DNA of 64,000 nt from an uncultured Gammaproteobacteria bacterium (GTDB lineage: Bacteria; Pseudomonadota; Gammaproteobacteria; UBA6429; Thiohalophilaceae): the NCBI GenBank assembly GCA_913064945.1, contig CAJYAN010000009.1, forward strand, positions 1-64,000, read 5' to 3'. Below, one piece after another: positions 1,821 through 33,254 of this stretch. The first letter of the stretch is position 1. Each line of letters starts with the position of its first letter. Below the pieces are notes generated by a model. The model saw only the letters and a program-made list of their open reading frames with translations, made no database searches and had not been told where the DNA came from. A program made the translations under genes and the position numbers.

Positions 1821-3101
1821 TTAGACAGCCTCCAACTTACGCAGTCCCGCCGGTAGAAGCTTGATGTCCACCAAAGCCGTTATCAAGGCCTTCATAAAAC
1901 TGGCTTCTTCCTCATATACGAGTTTGTAGTACTGGATCTTCATGGTCAGGGTACTCCCCAGGATGATGCTACCCAGCGTCATGAACGAGCCTAGCGCCAG
2001 AGTAGAGACACCCGTCACCCCCTGTCCAATCGTACAACCCAGACCCAGGACACCACCAAAACCCATCAGGACGCCACCAATGGCATGGGTATAAAAATCT
2101 TTGAAGGAGGCAAACCATTCAATACGAAATCGTCTGGTCAACAGCGACCAGAGGAAAGACCCCAAAATTACGCCGAGGACCGCCATCACACCGACGGTGA
2201 CAAAACTTGCTTTCACGCCGGATGTCGCATAACCCCATGCCTGGCCAATGGGGCTAATGAAGGTAAATGACTGTGGCAACAGGTTGGTCGAACCGTTTTG
2301 TGGTTTACCAGCACTGGAGTCCATCACAAAATCCCAGTTGGCATAGAATTGCGTCAGTGACTGGTGTCCGTCAGAGGTCGTAATCGTCGTCGTCGCTGTG
2401 AAATACCAGACCAGGACAACGGCCAGCCCAACGGCAAGACCGGCGAAGACATTATCGAAGCTCTTGCGAAAGTCCGCCGCGCGGAATATTAGAAACAATG
2501 ACACCGCGCCTATAACCAGACCAATAATCGTACGTACGGTCAATGCCGCCTGCCCCGACCAGCCAGCGACGATGCTGCCGAGATCCTGAGGCGTCGAGAG
2601 TGATATGGAGGCTTTACCTAGCCAGGGGGCAAAAAAACGTGCATACCAGTTCGCCGGCAGGATCTGCTTGTATGGGTCAACCATGTAGTAAGCAATAACC
2701 CCGATAATGACCAGTACCATAAACGATTTAATATTACCGCCACCGATACGAATCAACGTCTTGTTACCGCAGCCGCTGGCCAGTGTCATGCCAATACCAA
2801 AGAGTACCCCACCAAGGATATAACGACCCCACTGCAGCTCCGTTCCGCGATAGGGGGGCAAGGTACCCGTCCCAAGCGAAAACACGCCTGACGCCTCGAG
2901 AATCACCACACCCAGCATCGCGGTCGTGGCCGCCAGCATCCAGGCACGCATACGACCGGAATCACCCATATTCACCAGATCGGAAACGGCACCCATGGTG
3001 CAGAAATTAGTCTTGTTAACAATTGCACCCAAGATGGCCGCGACGACAAAAGTGGACCACAGAAAAAAGGACTGTGCCCCGGCAAAACTTTCGAAACTCA
3101 T
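1821..3101 (-). CDS. YeeE/YedE (TsuA-type) sulfur-compound permease
   Basis: 426 residues, mostly hydrophobic, with about nine to eleven membrane spans. It has the hallmarks of the YeeE/YedE family: conserved cysteines in NFCTMGAVSD (C34), LASGCGNKT (C111) and LGLGCTIGQG (C356). The internal repetition of Gly-Cys motifs is what lets TsuA hand thiosulfate through the membrane by cysteine relay. Length fits the fused two-domain form. Closeness to soxZ-soxA (720 bases away, convergent) supports import or movement of thiosulfate or a related sulfane-sulfur species across the inner membrane. The substrate is inferred; TsuA itself is the best-studied relative. The family also includes selenium and other sulfur transporters. 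Confidence 0.85.
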   Translation of the reverse strand: MSFESFAGAQSFFLWSTFVVAAILGAIVNKTNFCTMGAVSDLVNMGDSGRMRAWMLAATTAMLGVVILEASGVFSLGTGTLPPYRGTELQWGRYILGGVLFGIGMTLASGCGNKTLIRIGGGNIKSFMVLVIIGVIAYYMVDPYKQILPANWYARFFAPWLGKASISLSTPQDLGSIVAGWSGQAALTVRTIIGLVIGAVSLFLIFRAADFRKSFDNVFAGLAVGLAVVLVWYFTATTTITTSDGHQSLTQFYANWDFVMDSSAGKPQNGSTNLLPQSFTFISPIGQAWGYATSGVKASFVTVGVMAVLGVILGSFLWSLLTRRFRIEWFASFKDFYTHAIGGVLMGFGGVLGLGCTIGQGVTGVSTLALGSFMTLGSIILGSTLTMKIQYYKLVYEEEASFMKALITALVDIKLLPAGLRKLEAV

Positions 3102-27264: not shown

Positions 27265-30200
27265 CTAGTCCACCCAACGCCGCGCGTTCTGAAACAGACG
27301 GAGCCAGGGACCCTCTTCTGGCCAATCATCCGGGTGCCAGGAATATTGCACACTACGGAAAACACGCTCAGGGTGCGGCATCATAATCGTGACGCGACCA
27401 TCATCGGTCGTCAGACCGGTAACGCCTTGCGCTGAACCATTGGGATTAAATGGATAGACCTCGGATGGCTTACCGTAGTGATCAATGAAACGTAGAGCAA
27501 CATTGGCCTGTTGCCGATCGGTTTCTCCGGCAAACAGCGTACGGCCCTCACCATGGGCGACTGCAATGGGTAGACGCGAGCCCTGCATCCCCTGTAATAG
27601 AATTGAAGGCGATTCGCTTACCTCGACAAAGGACAGGCGCGCCTCAAACTGTTCGGACTGATTACGCACAAAACGTGGCCAGTGCGTTGCACCGGGGATC
27701 ATATCCTTTAAGTGCGAAAACATCTGGCAACCATTACAAATCCCAAGACCGAAACTATCACTCCGCTGAAAAAAGGCCGCAAAGGCGTCTCGTGCCCGGG
27801 CATTAAACAGGATCGATTTGGCCCATCCGCCGCCCGCACCCAGGACATCGCCATAGGAGAAGCCACCACAGGCCACCAGGCCTTTCACCGCCGTCAGGTC
27901 GAAACGCCCGGCGATAATATCGCTCATATGCACATCGATGCTGTTAAAACCTGCCTTATCAAAGGCCGCCGCCATCTCTACCTGCCCATTGACACCCTGT
28001 TCACGCAGAATCGCCACCGAGGGCCGCACACCGCGATTAAAATACGGGGCCGTAATATTTTCGGTCGGATCAAAACTGAGTATTGGCTGTATACCGGGAT
28101 CAGTTTTATCCAATAGACTATCGTAGGCCTGCTGGGCGCATGCGGCGTTATCACGCAGGGCCTGCATCTGATAACTGGTATTTGACCACAGGCGATGCCA
28201 GGCAATGCGATCCCCGGCCAGTACTTCACGTTTGTCATAGGTGAAGACCAGACGATCCTTATTATTCAACTCGCCAATGACATGGCTGTAGTGTGCCAGA
28301 CCATTGTCATGTAACCAGGCCAGGACATCATCCGTGTCACTGTGTTTTACCTGAATAACGGCACCGAGTTCTTCATTAAACAATGCCGCCACATGGTCAT
28401 CACCGAGATCATCAAGTTGGACACTGATGCCGCTATGCGCGGCAAAGGCCATTTCACAGAGTGTCGTAAACAGGCCACCATCAGAGCGATCGTGGTAGGC
28501 CAGTAATAGTCCTTTATCATTCATAGTTTGAATGGCACTAAAGAAACGTTTCAATACCTCGGCATCATCCACATCCGGGGCATCACGGCCAATCTGTTTG
28601 TAGACTTGCGCCAGACAGGAACCACCGAGACGATGCCTGCCCTTACCCAGGTCGATCAGGATTAAATCCGTGTCTCCCAGGTCGGTACGCAGCTGCGGGG
28701 TCAGGGTTTTGCGTACGTCCTGCACACGGGCAAAGGCGGAGATTATCAGTGACAATGGCGCGGTCACCGATTTTTCTTCACCACCCTCCTGCCAGACAGT
28801 CTTCATGGACATAGAATCCTTGCCAACGGGGATGGTAATTCCCAAGGCTGGACAAAGCTCCATACCGACCGCCTTCACCGCCGCATACAGACCGGCATCC
28901 TCACCGGCATGCCCGGCGGGTGCCATCCAGTTGGCGGACAACACCATATCGCTTAATGCATTAATACGCGCCGCCGCAATATTGGTGATCGCCTCGCCCA
29001 CGGCCATGCGTGCCGAGGCCACCGTATCCACCAGGGCAATCGGCGTGCGCTCCCCCATGGCCATGGCTTCACCGGTAAAACTTTCAAGCGTGGTACTGGT
29101 GACGGCAACATCGGCAACCGGTACCTGCCAGGGACCTACCATTTGATCGCGTGTCACCATGCCGGTGACCGAACGATCACCAATCGTAATTAGAAATGTC
29201 TTGTCTGCCACGGCTGGTAATTGCAGTACCCGCGCGGCGGCTTCCTGCAAATCGATTTTGCTAGTATCAAATTCATACTTTTGAAACGGGTGATGCTTAA
29301 CGTCGCGCAACATCTTAGGCGGCTTGCCCAGTAAGACTTCCAGCGGCATATCAATCGGTGTGTTACCGAAGTGTCCGTCACCGAGGACCAGTTGTTTCTC
29401 ATCCGTGGCCTCACCCACAATGGCATAAGGACAACGCTCGCGTTCACAAATGGCAGTAAAGGCATCTATGTCTTTGGCCTCGATAGCCAACACATAACGC
29501 TCCTGAGATTCATTGCACCATATCTCCAGTGGTGACATGCCGGGTTCATCATTGGGGATGGTCCGCAATTCAAAACGACCCCCACGGTCTGAGTCATTCA
29601 CGAGTTCCGGTAAGGCATTGGATAAACCACCCGCACCGACGTCATGGATACTGACAATGGGATTTTGACTCCCCATTTGCCAGCAACGATCAATCACTTC
29701 CTGGACACGGCGTTCGATTTCCGGATTACCACGCTGCACGGAGGCAAAATCCAGGTCTTCATGACTGGTACCGGTTGTCATTGACGAGGCGGCACCACCG
29801 CCAAGGCCTATCAGCATGGCCGGACCACCCAGGACGACGATCTGTGCTCCCGAGGGAATACGATTTTTTTCGATATGGTCTTCACGTATGCTGCCAAGAC
29901 CACCGGCCAGCATGATGGGTTTGTGATAGCCGCGGACCTCATCACCGGTTGGACCGGGGACCTTTTCTTCAAAGGTACGAAAATAACCGCAGATATTGGG
30001 ACGGCCAAATTCATTATTAAACGCCGCCGCGCCAAGCGGACCATCGATCATGATATCCAGCGCAGAGACAATACGCGTGGGGCGGCCATATTCCGTCTCC
30101 CAGGGTTGTGGCGCCTCGGGCAGGTGCAGGTTGGAGACCGAAAAGCCACACAGGCCCGCCTTGGGTTTGGAGCCACGCCCCGTGGCACCCTCATCTCGAA

Positions 30201-31146
30201 TCTCACCGCCGGAACCGGTCGCCGCCCCCGGAAAGGGTGATATGGCCGTAGGGTGATTGTGCGTCTCCACTTTCATCAGGATATGAACGGGTTCACTGTG
30301 ATACTGGTATTCGTTGCTACTGCTGTCCGGATAAAAACGCCCTGCCTGAAAACCCTGCATCACGGCCGAGTTGTCATGATAGGCCGACAGTATGCCCTTG
30401 GAATTTTGTTCGTAGGTATTACGAATCATTTTGAACAACGAGGCAGGTTGCGTCTGGCCGTCAATGACCCAGTCGGCATTAAAAATCTTGTGACGACAGT
30501 GCTCGGAATTGGCCTGAGCAAACATCATGAGTTCGATGTCATTGGGATTACGGCCCAGGGCCAGAAAATTTTCCAGCAGGTAATCGATCTCGTCGCTCGC
30601 CAGGGCCAGTCCCATGTCGGTATTGGCGCGGACCAGGGCGTCGCGACCGCCACCCAGGATATCGACACTGACCATCGGTGCAGGTTCGGCCGTAACAAAC
30701 AGGGCCTCGGCTTCCTCCAGAGACGGCACGACAACCTCGATCATGCGATCATGTAACAACGCCTTGATCGCCTGAAGCGTTGCCGCGTCGGATATCTCAC
30801 CGGCAACGTCGAGGTAATAGGCAATCCCCCGCTCGACACGATGGATAGTATGCAAACCACAATTGTGCAGAATATCCGTCGCTTTTGAGGCCCAGGGTGA
30901 GATGGTCCCGGGGCGGGGCATTACCAGCAACAGGCGACCACAATACTCGATATCGGTCACCTCTCCATACACCAGCAGAGAGCGTAGCTGCGCCATAGCC
31001 TCAGTGCTAAGTTTCTGTTCTACATCAACAAAATGGAAATATTGTGCCTCAATCGACTGCAACTCGGGCACTATCGCCTGCAGTGCAGCCAGGAGTTTTT
31101 GTTGGCGAAAAGGCGAGAGGGCGGGACTGCCGGGCAACTGCAACAT
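27265..31146 (-). CDS. purL: Phosphoribosylformylglycinamidine synthase, large single-chain PurL
   Basis: 1293 residues, the gammaproteobacterial/eukaryotic single-chain form. It converts FGAR to FGAM with glutamine and ATP in purine synthesis. The N-terminal PurS-like domain is followed by two AIRS-type halves ([23 protein letters not shown] region; [14 protein letters not shown]) and a C-terminal class I glutaminase with the nucleophile cysteine in GLGICNGCQ and the HGEGR/HPER segments. It is a single-gene transcription unit here, with 147 bases upstream before the DUF2173 genes. Confidence 0.98.
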
Positions 31147-31293: not shown

Positions 31294-31626
31294 TTACCAG
31301 CTCGCGGCGGTAGCCAGCGCCTGCATGACCTCATTTAGTGAGCCTTCATTGTTCTGCAACACACAGACCAGGTTACCGGTGCCGCAGACCGAGAGCTGTG
31401 GACCTCGAACAATCCAGCCACCGGGCGGTGTCCAGCCATTCATCTGGGTAAACATGGATAGCTGATCGGCATTACCCTGCACAATGCGTTTATAATCATG
31501 GGCAAACTTGGCCAGACCCGCGAGTTGATCCTCTGGCAACATACCGTAGCCCTCAAGAAACAAGCCATCATCACGAAACAGGCAAATGGCCATGACGCCA
31601 TCCAGCGCCAATAATTGTTTAATCAT
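31294..31626 (-). CDS. DUF2173 (roadblock-like) protein, third of a tandem trio
   Basis: 110 residues. The N-terminal IKQLLALDGVMAICLFRDDG and the later GWIVRGPQLSVCGTGNLVCVLQN followed by SLNEVMQ match DUF2173, a small roadblock/LC7-like family that I recall mostly from sulfur-oxidizing bacteria. It is closely related to the gene at 32068-32424 (shared GWIVRG..(L/F)SVC and SLN(E/D)VMQ). It starts 9 bases after the middle gene of the trio. No membrane span or signal peptide. Function unknown; roadblock folds usually form dimers that contact small GTPases or scaffolds. Confidence 0.8.
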   Translation of the reverse strand: MIKQLLALDGVMAICLFRDDGLFLEGYGMLPEDQLAGLAKFAHDYKRIVQGNADQLSMFTQMNGWTPPGGWIVRGPQLSVCGTGNLVCVLQNNEGSLNEVMQALATAASW

Positions 31627-31635
31627 GGCGATACC

Positions 31636-31974
31636 TCACTGTCCGAGGGCAGCGTAGGCCGCTTCATAATCCACTTTGTCATTTGGTAACACGACGCCGT
31701 AGCCCTGATTCACAATCGCGGTCCAGTCAAAGCCGACGAAGGTAAAACCCTCAATCGGGTAAAAGCCCTGCATGCCGGTCATTTTTTCCCAGCCGCGTGC
31801 CTGCATGGTCGCAATCGCCATATTGGCAATACAGACATGACAGAGCAGATCCAGGACGGTCTCATTCAGATCACTGCCAGTGGCAATTTGATGCGCTTGC
31901 AGCTCCCCTTTGTCCGAGTATTGAAAGGCGGCAGCGGCGCCGGCCAGGTTCATTAATGTATTCAAATCAGGCAT
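31636..31974 (-). CDS. DUF2173 (roadblock-like) protein, middle and most divergent of the trio
   Basis: 112 residues. It follows the plan of its neighbours (MPDLNTLMNLAGAAAAFQYSDKGEL, a cysteine-bearing helix, then a hydrophobic strand pair GFTFVGFDWTAIVNQGYGVVLPN) but lacks the GWIVRG motif. The end (VDYEAAYAALG) differs from the SLNxVMQ end of the other two. It begins about 93 bases after the first gene's stop and ends 9 bases before the third gene. It was probably derived by duplication followed by divergence, perhaps to make a heteromeric complex. Confidence 0.75.
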   Translation of the reverse strand: MPDLNTLMNLAGAAAAFQYSDKGELQAHQIATGSDLNETVLDLLCHVCIANMAIATMQARGWEKMTGMQGFYPIEGFTFVGFDWTAIVNQGYGVVLPNDKVDYEAAYAALGQ

Positions 31975-32067
31975 ACGATGCCCCCCTCTTGTTCTTTACG
32001 TTGATATATTTTTTAAGCTGGCTTCCAGGTTCTCTGTGTAAGGACACAGGTAACTCACCACGTGAGT

Positions 32068-32424
32068 TTAGATGAGGTCACCTTCCTGATGAGGGACCTT
32101 GTCACGCATGATTTGCATGACATCATTTAATGACGTCGCCTGATTATTGATAAAACAAAAAACATTGGCGATGACACAAACACTAAACTGCTGACCCCGA
32201 ACGATCCAGCCACGTGCCGGGGCGCAACCACAGTCGTGACCAAGTCCCTTCATCATGTCAGCCTGCATATGTACCGCCATGGTGGTTGCACGACACATGA
32301 TCGAGGCCATACGGGCCTTGTCATCGTCCAGTTCTCCCTGGCAGGAAAAACGATCACCTCGAAAGGAATATTCACCGGCAGCAATAACACCCGGCACTGC
32401 AGATAACTCGTCGAGTAGACTCAT
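32068..32424 (-). CDS. DUF2173 (roadblock-like) protein, first of a tandem trio
   Basis: 118 residues: LLDELSAVPGVIAAGEYSF at the start, a helix with cysteines (SIMCRATTMAVHMQADMM), a Cys pair (HDCGCAPARG) absent from the third gene, then GWIVRGQQFSVCVIANVFCFINN and SLNDVMQ. A good AGAGGGG ribosome site lies upstream, and a TATAAC -10-like hexamer at 32447-32452 would give a leader of about 20 bases. This is the promoter-proximal gene of the trio, divergent from the RDD gene. Confidence 0.8.
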   Translation of the reverse strand: MSLLDELSAVPGVIAAGEYSFRGDRFSCQGELDDDKARMASIMCRATTMAVHMQADMMKGLGHDCGCAPARGWIVRGQQFSVCVIANVFCFINNQATSLNDVMQIMRDKVPHQEGDLI

Positions 32425-32732
32425 AGGACACCCCTCTTTATTCGACGTTATAAAATTTTTATTATTATCGTTTCCCTGACCGCACCAGGCTGCCTCTATC
32501 GAGACAGTAGCACCTACCAGAATCTAGCTTATCAGACATCCGATGTCATCGAAAAAATGGCTGGCGCGATTCATCGGGAACTCTACGTTTTAATATTAGC
32601 GCAGTTTTTATTAATAACCCTGTGGCGAAACGATTGCAAGCTTTCTCATCCCATGCGGCAATCACACATTTGACAGCAGCCATAAGACCGGCCATGATGA
32701 CAACTTTCAATTAACACATACCATTTTCTAAC
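32425..32732. other. Divergent intergenic region between the DUF2173 trio and the RDD gene
   Basis: About 310 bases of A+T-rich sequence between divergent genes. Apart from the possible -10 noted for the DUF2173 operon (32447-32452, minus), I see no clear operator, repeat or small gene. Confidence 0.5.
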
Positions 32733-33254
32733 GTGTCTTCATCCGCCGCTCATGCACAGCCTGCTCCTCCCTGGCGTTGTCTGCTTGCCAGTCTCTATGA
32801 CGCCCTGATTCTACTCGCCTTATGCTTTCTGGCCATGGCGGTGATCACGCCGATTTTTGATAGTCAGAGTTCTATTCAGCATATATTGGCCGGTATTTAT
32901 TTACTGATGGTGATCTCAGCATTTTATCTATGGTTCTGGACACATGGCGGTCAGACACTGGGCATGCGTGCCTGGCGTCTTCGACTTCAAGGCAAGGATG
33001 ATCAGCCAGTCAAACTAACACAGGGCATACTCAGAATCATAACGGCACTCCCCTCCTGGCTCGGCCTTGGTATATTTGCCCTGCTGGCGAGTATACGTAA
33101 TAGCAGTGAGCTGCCTGTGCTATTCCAGCAACTACAGCCCTATGCGCCCTGGTTATGTCTGCTATGCCTTGTCTGGATTCTATTTGACAATCGCTCAGCT
33201 TCCTGGCGTAACCGTTTCAGTCATACTCACGTAACGTTTACGCCCAAAACCTAG
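32733..33254 (+). CDS. RDD family membrane protein
   Basis: 173 residues from a GTG. An RDD domain with the Arg/Asp pattern (WRCLLASLYDALILLALCF, and GQTLGMRAWRLRL after the second span) and about four membrane helices. The C-terminus has VWILFDNRSASWRNRFSHT. RDD proteins are a broad family; some act in sodium/proton exchange, most are uncharacterised. It converges with lptG, and both stop codons share the palindrome CTAG at 33251-33254. Confidence 0.87.
   Translation: MSSSAAHAQPAPPWRCLLASLYDALILLALCFLAMAVITPIFDSQSSIQHILAGIYLLMVISAFYLWFWTHGGQTLGMRAWRLRLQGKDDQPVKLTQGILRIITALPSWLGLGIFALLASIRNSSELPVLFQQLQPYAPWLCLLCLVWILFDNRSASWRNRFSHTHVTFTPKT

Follow-up and report, generated by a model that had tools for sequence, protein, structure and literature searches.

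A three-gene DUF2173 operon of sulfur-oxidizing Gammaproteobacteria, a candidate for a heteromeric roadblock assembly

The locus and its genomic surroundings

The window, a 64,000-nucleotide stretch of contig CAJYAN010000009.1 from an uncultured gammaproteobacterium of the Thiohalophilaceae, harbors three adjacent genes on the minus strand, named A, B and C in the order of their transcription. The features of the locus are as follows.

27265-31146, minus strand: purL, downstream of the trio and on the same strand; a flank outside the system (Pfam, synteny)
31294-31626, minus strand: gene C, the last of the operon; 110 aa, DUF2173, paralogue clade C
31636-31974, minus strand: gene B, the middle gene; 112 aa, DUF2173/roadblock, paralogue clade B
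32068-32424, minus strand: gene A, the first of the operon; 118 aa, DUF2173/roadblock, paralogue clade A
32425-32732, minus strand: divergent intergenic region before the operon, 308 bp, presumed from its sequence to hold the promoter
32733-33254, plus strand: divergent gene for an RDD-family membrane protein (PF06271), followed by lptG and lptF; a flank outside the system (synteny)

The initial annotation described three adjacent DUF2173 genes of 110-118 codons, and the open reading frames lie exactly where it placed them, all with E ≤ 2e-31. The matches to Pfam PF09941 (A, E = 3.9e-36; B, 1.6e-31; C, 6.3e-36) are full length and score 109-124 bits against a curated cut-off of 26.1 bits. A, B and C are full-length members of a family known only as an uncharacterized domain, and they are the only DUF2173 copies in the genome (3.2 Mb, 22 contigs). 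The motifs GWIVRG and SLN(E/D)VMQ are, as originally noticed, common to A and C and missing from B. The lack of GWIVRG does not make B the aberrant member it was taken for, however, as C is the most distant from single-copy DUF2173 proteins (mean identity to them 30.8% for B, 29.9% for A and 25.1% for C). Across the trio loci, the gap between B and C has a median of 9 nt, with many overlaps of 4 nt or 1 nt, and that between A and B a median of 38 nt, reaching 362 nt. A motif scan of the upstream regions of 66 loci revealed no conserved sigma-54-like promoter element.

The arrangement lptF-lptG-RDD(divergent)-A-B-C-(purL) is deeply conserved across many families and is a vertical, housekeeping context. 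Other families carry the trio near genes such as valS, pcnB, folK or panB/panC (named by sequence inspection, not by profile) or elsewhere, and the trio stays intact across these differing housekeeping contexts. No functional partner travels with the trio in the neighborhoods examined. Operon partners were also sought by guilt by association and rejected, the neighbors being vertical synteny or unrelated housekeeping genes. In none of the contexts examined does a sox, dsr or sHdr gene lie within the operon or adjoin it. The sox genes of the window had been read as fitting the trio. That point falls away: soxA (TIGR04484) lies at the contig start, approximately 30 kb from the trio and with no operon link to it, and this distance, together with the intervening housekeeping genes, means that proximity within the window is not evidence. 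At positions 1-1042, soxA is preceded by an apparent 3' end of soxZ; the contig break removes the remainder of the cluster, and soxB of this genome is on another contig. A Sulf_transp (YeeE/YedE-like) permease of 426 aa is encoded at 1821-3101, and its matches to models of the thiosulfate transporter TsuA are far below the cut-offs.

Three diverged paralogues kept as one set

The AlphaFold2 models of A and B (pLDDT 89.7 and 95.6, respectively) share the element order H-E-E-H-E-E-E-H. Foldseek matched both to roadblock proteins, MglB and Ragulator/LAMTOR subunits with a probability of 1.00 and TM-scores mostly of approximately 0.6-0.75. The earlier description of the proteins as roadblock-like is borne out by these two analyses for A and B, for which the roadblock fold is confidently predicted; C probably has the same fold, judging from homology. 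A profile search of PDB sequences returned no roadblock chain, so membership follows from the predicted fold alone. The fold is not, however, defined by sequence resemblance to its solved members. Predicted strand beta-3, which in roadblock proteins forms the dimer edge, carries the conserved motifs GW(I/V)xG in A and GFxxxG in B.

A tree of 78 sequences supports the clades A, B and C at 81, 100 and 100, respectively, and a split with 98% support places A and C apart from B and the single-copy proteins. Orthologues are 52-56% identical to one another, and paralogues 20-26%. The low identity between paralogues relative to orthologues, together with the clade support, indicates that the duplications are older than the families and that each subunit is under separate constraint, with its own invariant residues. 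The three therefore represent long-separated types of subunit; recent tandem duplication does not explain them. Across 106 triples, the invariant residues of A are R22-G-D-R, C44, C83 and C90, and A also carries the GWIVRG strand. Those of B are H46, A50-N51, MQARGWE and GFYP, giving the signature H-x-C-x-A-N...MQARGWE...GFYP, and those of C are FRDDG, R47, Q50, D54-Q55 and GWTPP, giving FRDDG...GWTPP.GW.VRG. Mean-field coupling of the 106 paired triples (effective size 72) was dominated by shared ancestry, its within-protein signal was not contact-like, and the analysis was set aside.

Within the GTDB family of the window, 30 of 37 genomes have three or six DUF2173 copies and seven have none; no genome among the 37, many of them fragmented MAGs, has any other number. 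A class-wide sample contained DUF2173 in 46 of 369 genomes, 41 of which carry the trio, with five holding one or two copies. Both counts were made with the Pfam model and are free of the bias of seeding with B. Each of 66 extracted trio loci has every paralogue exactly once, in the order A-B-C and on a single strand (66/66); order was assigned from stop codon positions, and the tree resolves three clades of 66 sequences each. All 80 loci fetched from named GTDB genomes (the best 80 of 112 relatives) are likewise A-B-C, in a scan that used the B profile as seed and is therefore blind to loci without B. The two samples overlap in genomes and together comprise 106 distinct triples. Genomes with the trio span 20 GTDB families, and preservation of the A-B-C order in 66/66 and 80/80 loci is far beyond chance. 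The distinct paralogous subunits of the trio were always encoded together in these genome searches, as a Ragulator-like heteromer would require. Two complete A-B-C sets are present in G055 (L049 and L050), where they are divergent and each has an unrelated context, and likewise in G032 (L058 and L059).

Occurrence with sulfur oxidation and RuBisCO

The 46 DUF2173 genomes of the class include 43 with soxB, 33 with dsrA (counted as present at a best E < 1e-30, so that fragments in MAGs count) and 45 with either, whereas either gene is present in only 121 of the 323 class genomes that lack DUF2173 (Fisher p ~2e-16, uncorrected for shared ancestry). When trio genomes alone are considered, soxB or dsrA is present in 40 of 41. 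RuBisCO is encoded in 34 of 35 tested trio genomes versus 35 of 45 sulfur oxidizers that lack the trio (p 0.02). Autotrophy alone was rejected as an explanation: 20 of 80 genomes negative for soxB and dsrA have RuBisCO, and none of those 20 has DUF2173. The exception among trio genomes is G337 (L115), which lacks soxB, dsrA and RuBisCO; its assembly is in 350 contigs, and the contig with the trio is possibly misbinned. Named carriers include Thiohalophilus thiocyanatoxydans, Thiohalobacter thiocyanaticus, the Solemya velum symbiont, Sedimenticola, Thiogranum, Guyparkeria hydrothermalis and Candidatus Thiobius.

Neither of two cytoplasmic pathways accounts for this distribution. Dependence on Dsr was rejected, as 13 of the 46 DUF2173 genomes and seven trio genomes of the window's own family lack it. 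Dependence on sHdr was rejected on the basis of a Guyparkeria-like family (G193, G303 and G396) with neither dsrA nor an sHdr signature. The sHdr signature, judged from the spacing of CCG hits, was present in families f27, f122 and f127 and in G055, and in none of the f158 genomes. The loci L105, L112 and L127 of G193, G303 and G396 combine the trio with soxB, indicating that the trio is separable from the cytoplasmic sulfane-sulfur branches. Of the seven genomes in the window's family without the trio, dsrA is retained by six and full-length soxB by four; neither pathway thus requires the trio. Nor does sulfur oxidation suffice for the trio to be present, and some sulfur oxidizers can dispense with it. 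The co-occurrence that had been proposed for examination with sox, dsr and hdr genes is therefore present for soxB or dsrA, but with no tie to dsr or sHdr specifically.

DUF2173 itself has a wider and thinner distribution. In a sample of 299 genomes of the phylum it was present only in the window's own genome, indicating a rare family. Control genomes of Methanosarcina and Sulfolobus gave DUF2173 matches. Plasmids of the methanotroph Methylocystis iwaonis carry single-copy DUF2173 genes (L213:8001-8348 and L214:10001-10348) adjoining a split gene for an SOS-response-associated peptidase, showing that DUF2173 is not confined to sulfur oxidizers. The initial annotation had placed the family mainly in sulfur oxidizers. 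This link holds for genomes with the trio but not for the family, given the single copies in Methylocystis and the matches in Methanosarcina; it is the three-paralogue operon that is associated with sulfur oxidation, and not DUF2173 proteins in general. A DUF2173 protein of the Sulfolobaceae is among the genes most induced by sulfur, with 99-fold and 32-fold increases (PMC11323534). It is a multi-span membrane protein, an architecture other than that of the trio, and its support is indirect. It is also the only protein for which DUF2173 is named in the open-access literature searched, which held no description of a strict three-paralogue DUF2173 operon and nothing relevant on COG4831 or on roadblock proteins with sulfur.

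A possible three-subunit scaffold and its alternatives

The unvarying combination of a single A, B and C strongly suggests a heteromeric complex, and an obligate heteromeric assembly is the best explanation for an unbroken set of three diverged subunits. The three proteins could instead each be a homodimeric regulator or binding protein, placed in one operon for common expression without any joint complex. MglB, a roadblock protein, is a homodimer (PMC9481161), single-copy DUF2173 proteins must function without B or C, and the often long gap between A and B is in keeping with separate proteins. However, separate homodimers do not predict the absence of one- or two-member genomes from the window's family, nor an order kept across 20 families, and this explanation is considered unlikely. 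The trio could also be a vertically inherited lineage marker whose sulfur association reflects shared ancestry only. Its recurrence beside lptFG and RDD, often with purL, across many families does point to old vertical inheritance, but the trio is also found in unrelated contexts in several families, persists in families without dsr and sHdr, and is missing from nearly all genomes of the same class that are negative for soxB and dsrA. Shared ancestry as the sole cause therefore seems quite unlikely.

Conserved cysteines raise the prospect of a redox, persulfide or metal sensor, in which cysteine oxidation or sulfur binding switches the assembly. C83 and C90 of A, and C81 and C88 of C, are placed as a pair across the beta4-beta5 hairpin, in a register taken from the predicted secondary structure of A, and C44 of A is placed on alpha-2. 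Conservation is strong, at 82-99% of the 106 sequences (C44, C83 and C90 of A, 99%, 96% and 92%; C81 and C88 of C, 82% and 91%). The commonest B sequences have no cysteine at either paired position, and single-copy relatives retain only the first. Yet the second cysteine is replaced by alanine in some intact trios, and buried structural cysteines account for the pattern equally well, making a sensor distinctly unlikely. Very doubtful is the fuller proposal that a three-subunit complex senses the redox or sulfur state by the paired cysteines of two subunits and so couples the flow of electrons from thiosulfate to carbon fixation or respiration in sulfur-oxidizing autotrophs, without a small GTPase. 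Regulation of small GTPases is the best-known role of bacterial roadblock proteins, and MglB and subunits of Ragulator/LAMTOR are among the best structural matches; the trio might accordingly be a GAP or GEF scaffold like MglB or Ragulator, acting on a Ras-like GTPase whose gene lies elsewhere. However, PF00025 searches found no small MglA/Arf-type GTPase (~200 aa) in 14 trio genomes. The sequences that did match did so weakly, in frames of ~430-1150 aa that would fit IF2 and Der. Nor was a GTPase recognized near the operon in the trio-locus neighborhoods, and this already weakened reading is highly improbable.

We favor, with moderate confidence, an obligate three-component roadblock scaffold in sulfur-oxidizing chemolithoautotrophs that acts only as the complete set. 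One compact operon would supply three anciently diverged roadblock-fold subunits, and the most likely mechanism is that A, B and C form a small cytosolic heteromeric scaffold. Pairing would use the usual roadblock dimer surface, to which the long helix alpha-2 and the edge strand beta-3 contribute; that strand bears GFxxxG in B and GW(I/V)xG in the other two. Three non-identical subunits would present defined, asymmetric binding faces to client proteins. The assembly is probably an adaptor or platform and not a GTPase-activating protein, a role favored because no MglA/Arf-type small GTPase was found in the tested trio genomes. Its client or signal probably lies on the electron-donor or energy side of sulfur-oxidizing chemolithoautotrophy. 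We infer the physical complex, the dimer surfaces, the scaffold role and the pathway served.

Two known systems are instructive for comparison. MglB and MglC of Myxococcus and Thermus are small soluble proteins with the same predicted fold as A and B (Foldseek probability 1.00) and, like the trio, are paralogues working in one module. Unlike them, the trio consists of three obligate paralogues in one operon, with ~10-22% identity to MglB/MglC, and the MglA/Arf-like GTPase that an MglB-type GAP module needs was not found in the 14 trio genomes. LAMTOR2/3 and LAMTOR4/5 of Ragulator (p14-MP1) offer a precedent for distinct roadblock subunits acting as a heteromeric scaffold, and they match A and B by Foldseek. 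Ragulator differs, however, in being eukaryotic and lysosomal, with two heterodimers arranged around p18 in the service of Rag GTPases, and no sequence relationship to the trio was found beyond the fold.

With these results, DUF2173, so far a domain without an assigned function, gains a setting in which it can be tested. The obligate three-part set marks chemolithoautotrophic sulfur oxidizers across approximately 20 GTDB families, including the cultivable genera Thiohalophilus, Thiohalobacter and Guyparkeria. The best-known examples of roadblock assemblies with a defined heteromeric make-up are eukaryotic, namely Ragulator and dynein. A bacterial roadblock heteromer that works independently of GTPases, if true, would widen the uses of the fold, and the trio may bring to light a missing part of sulfur-based energy metabolism.
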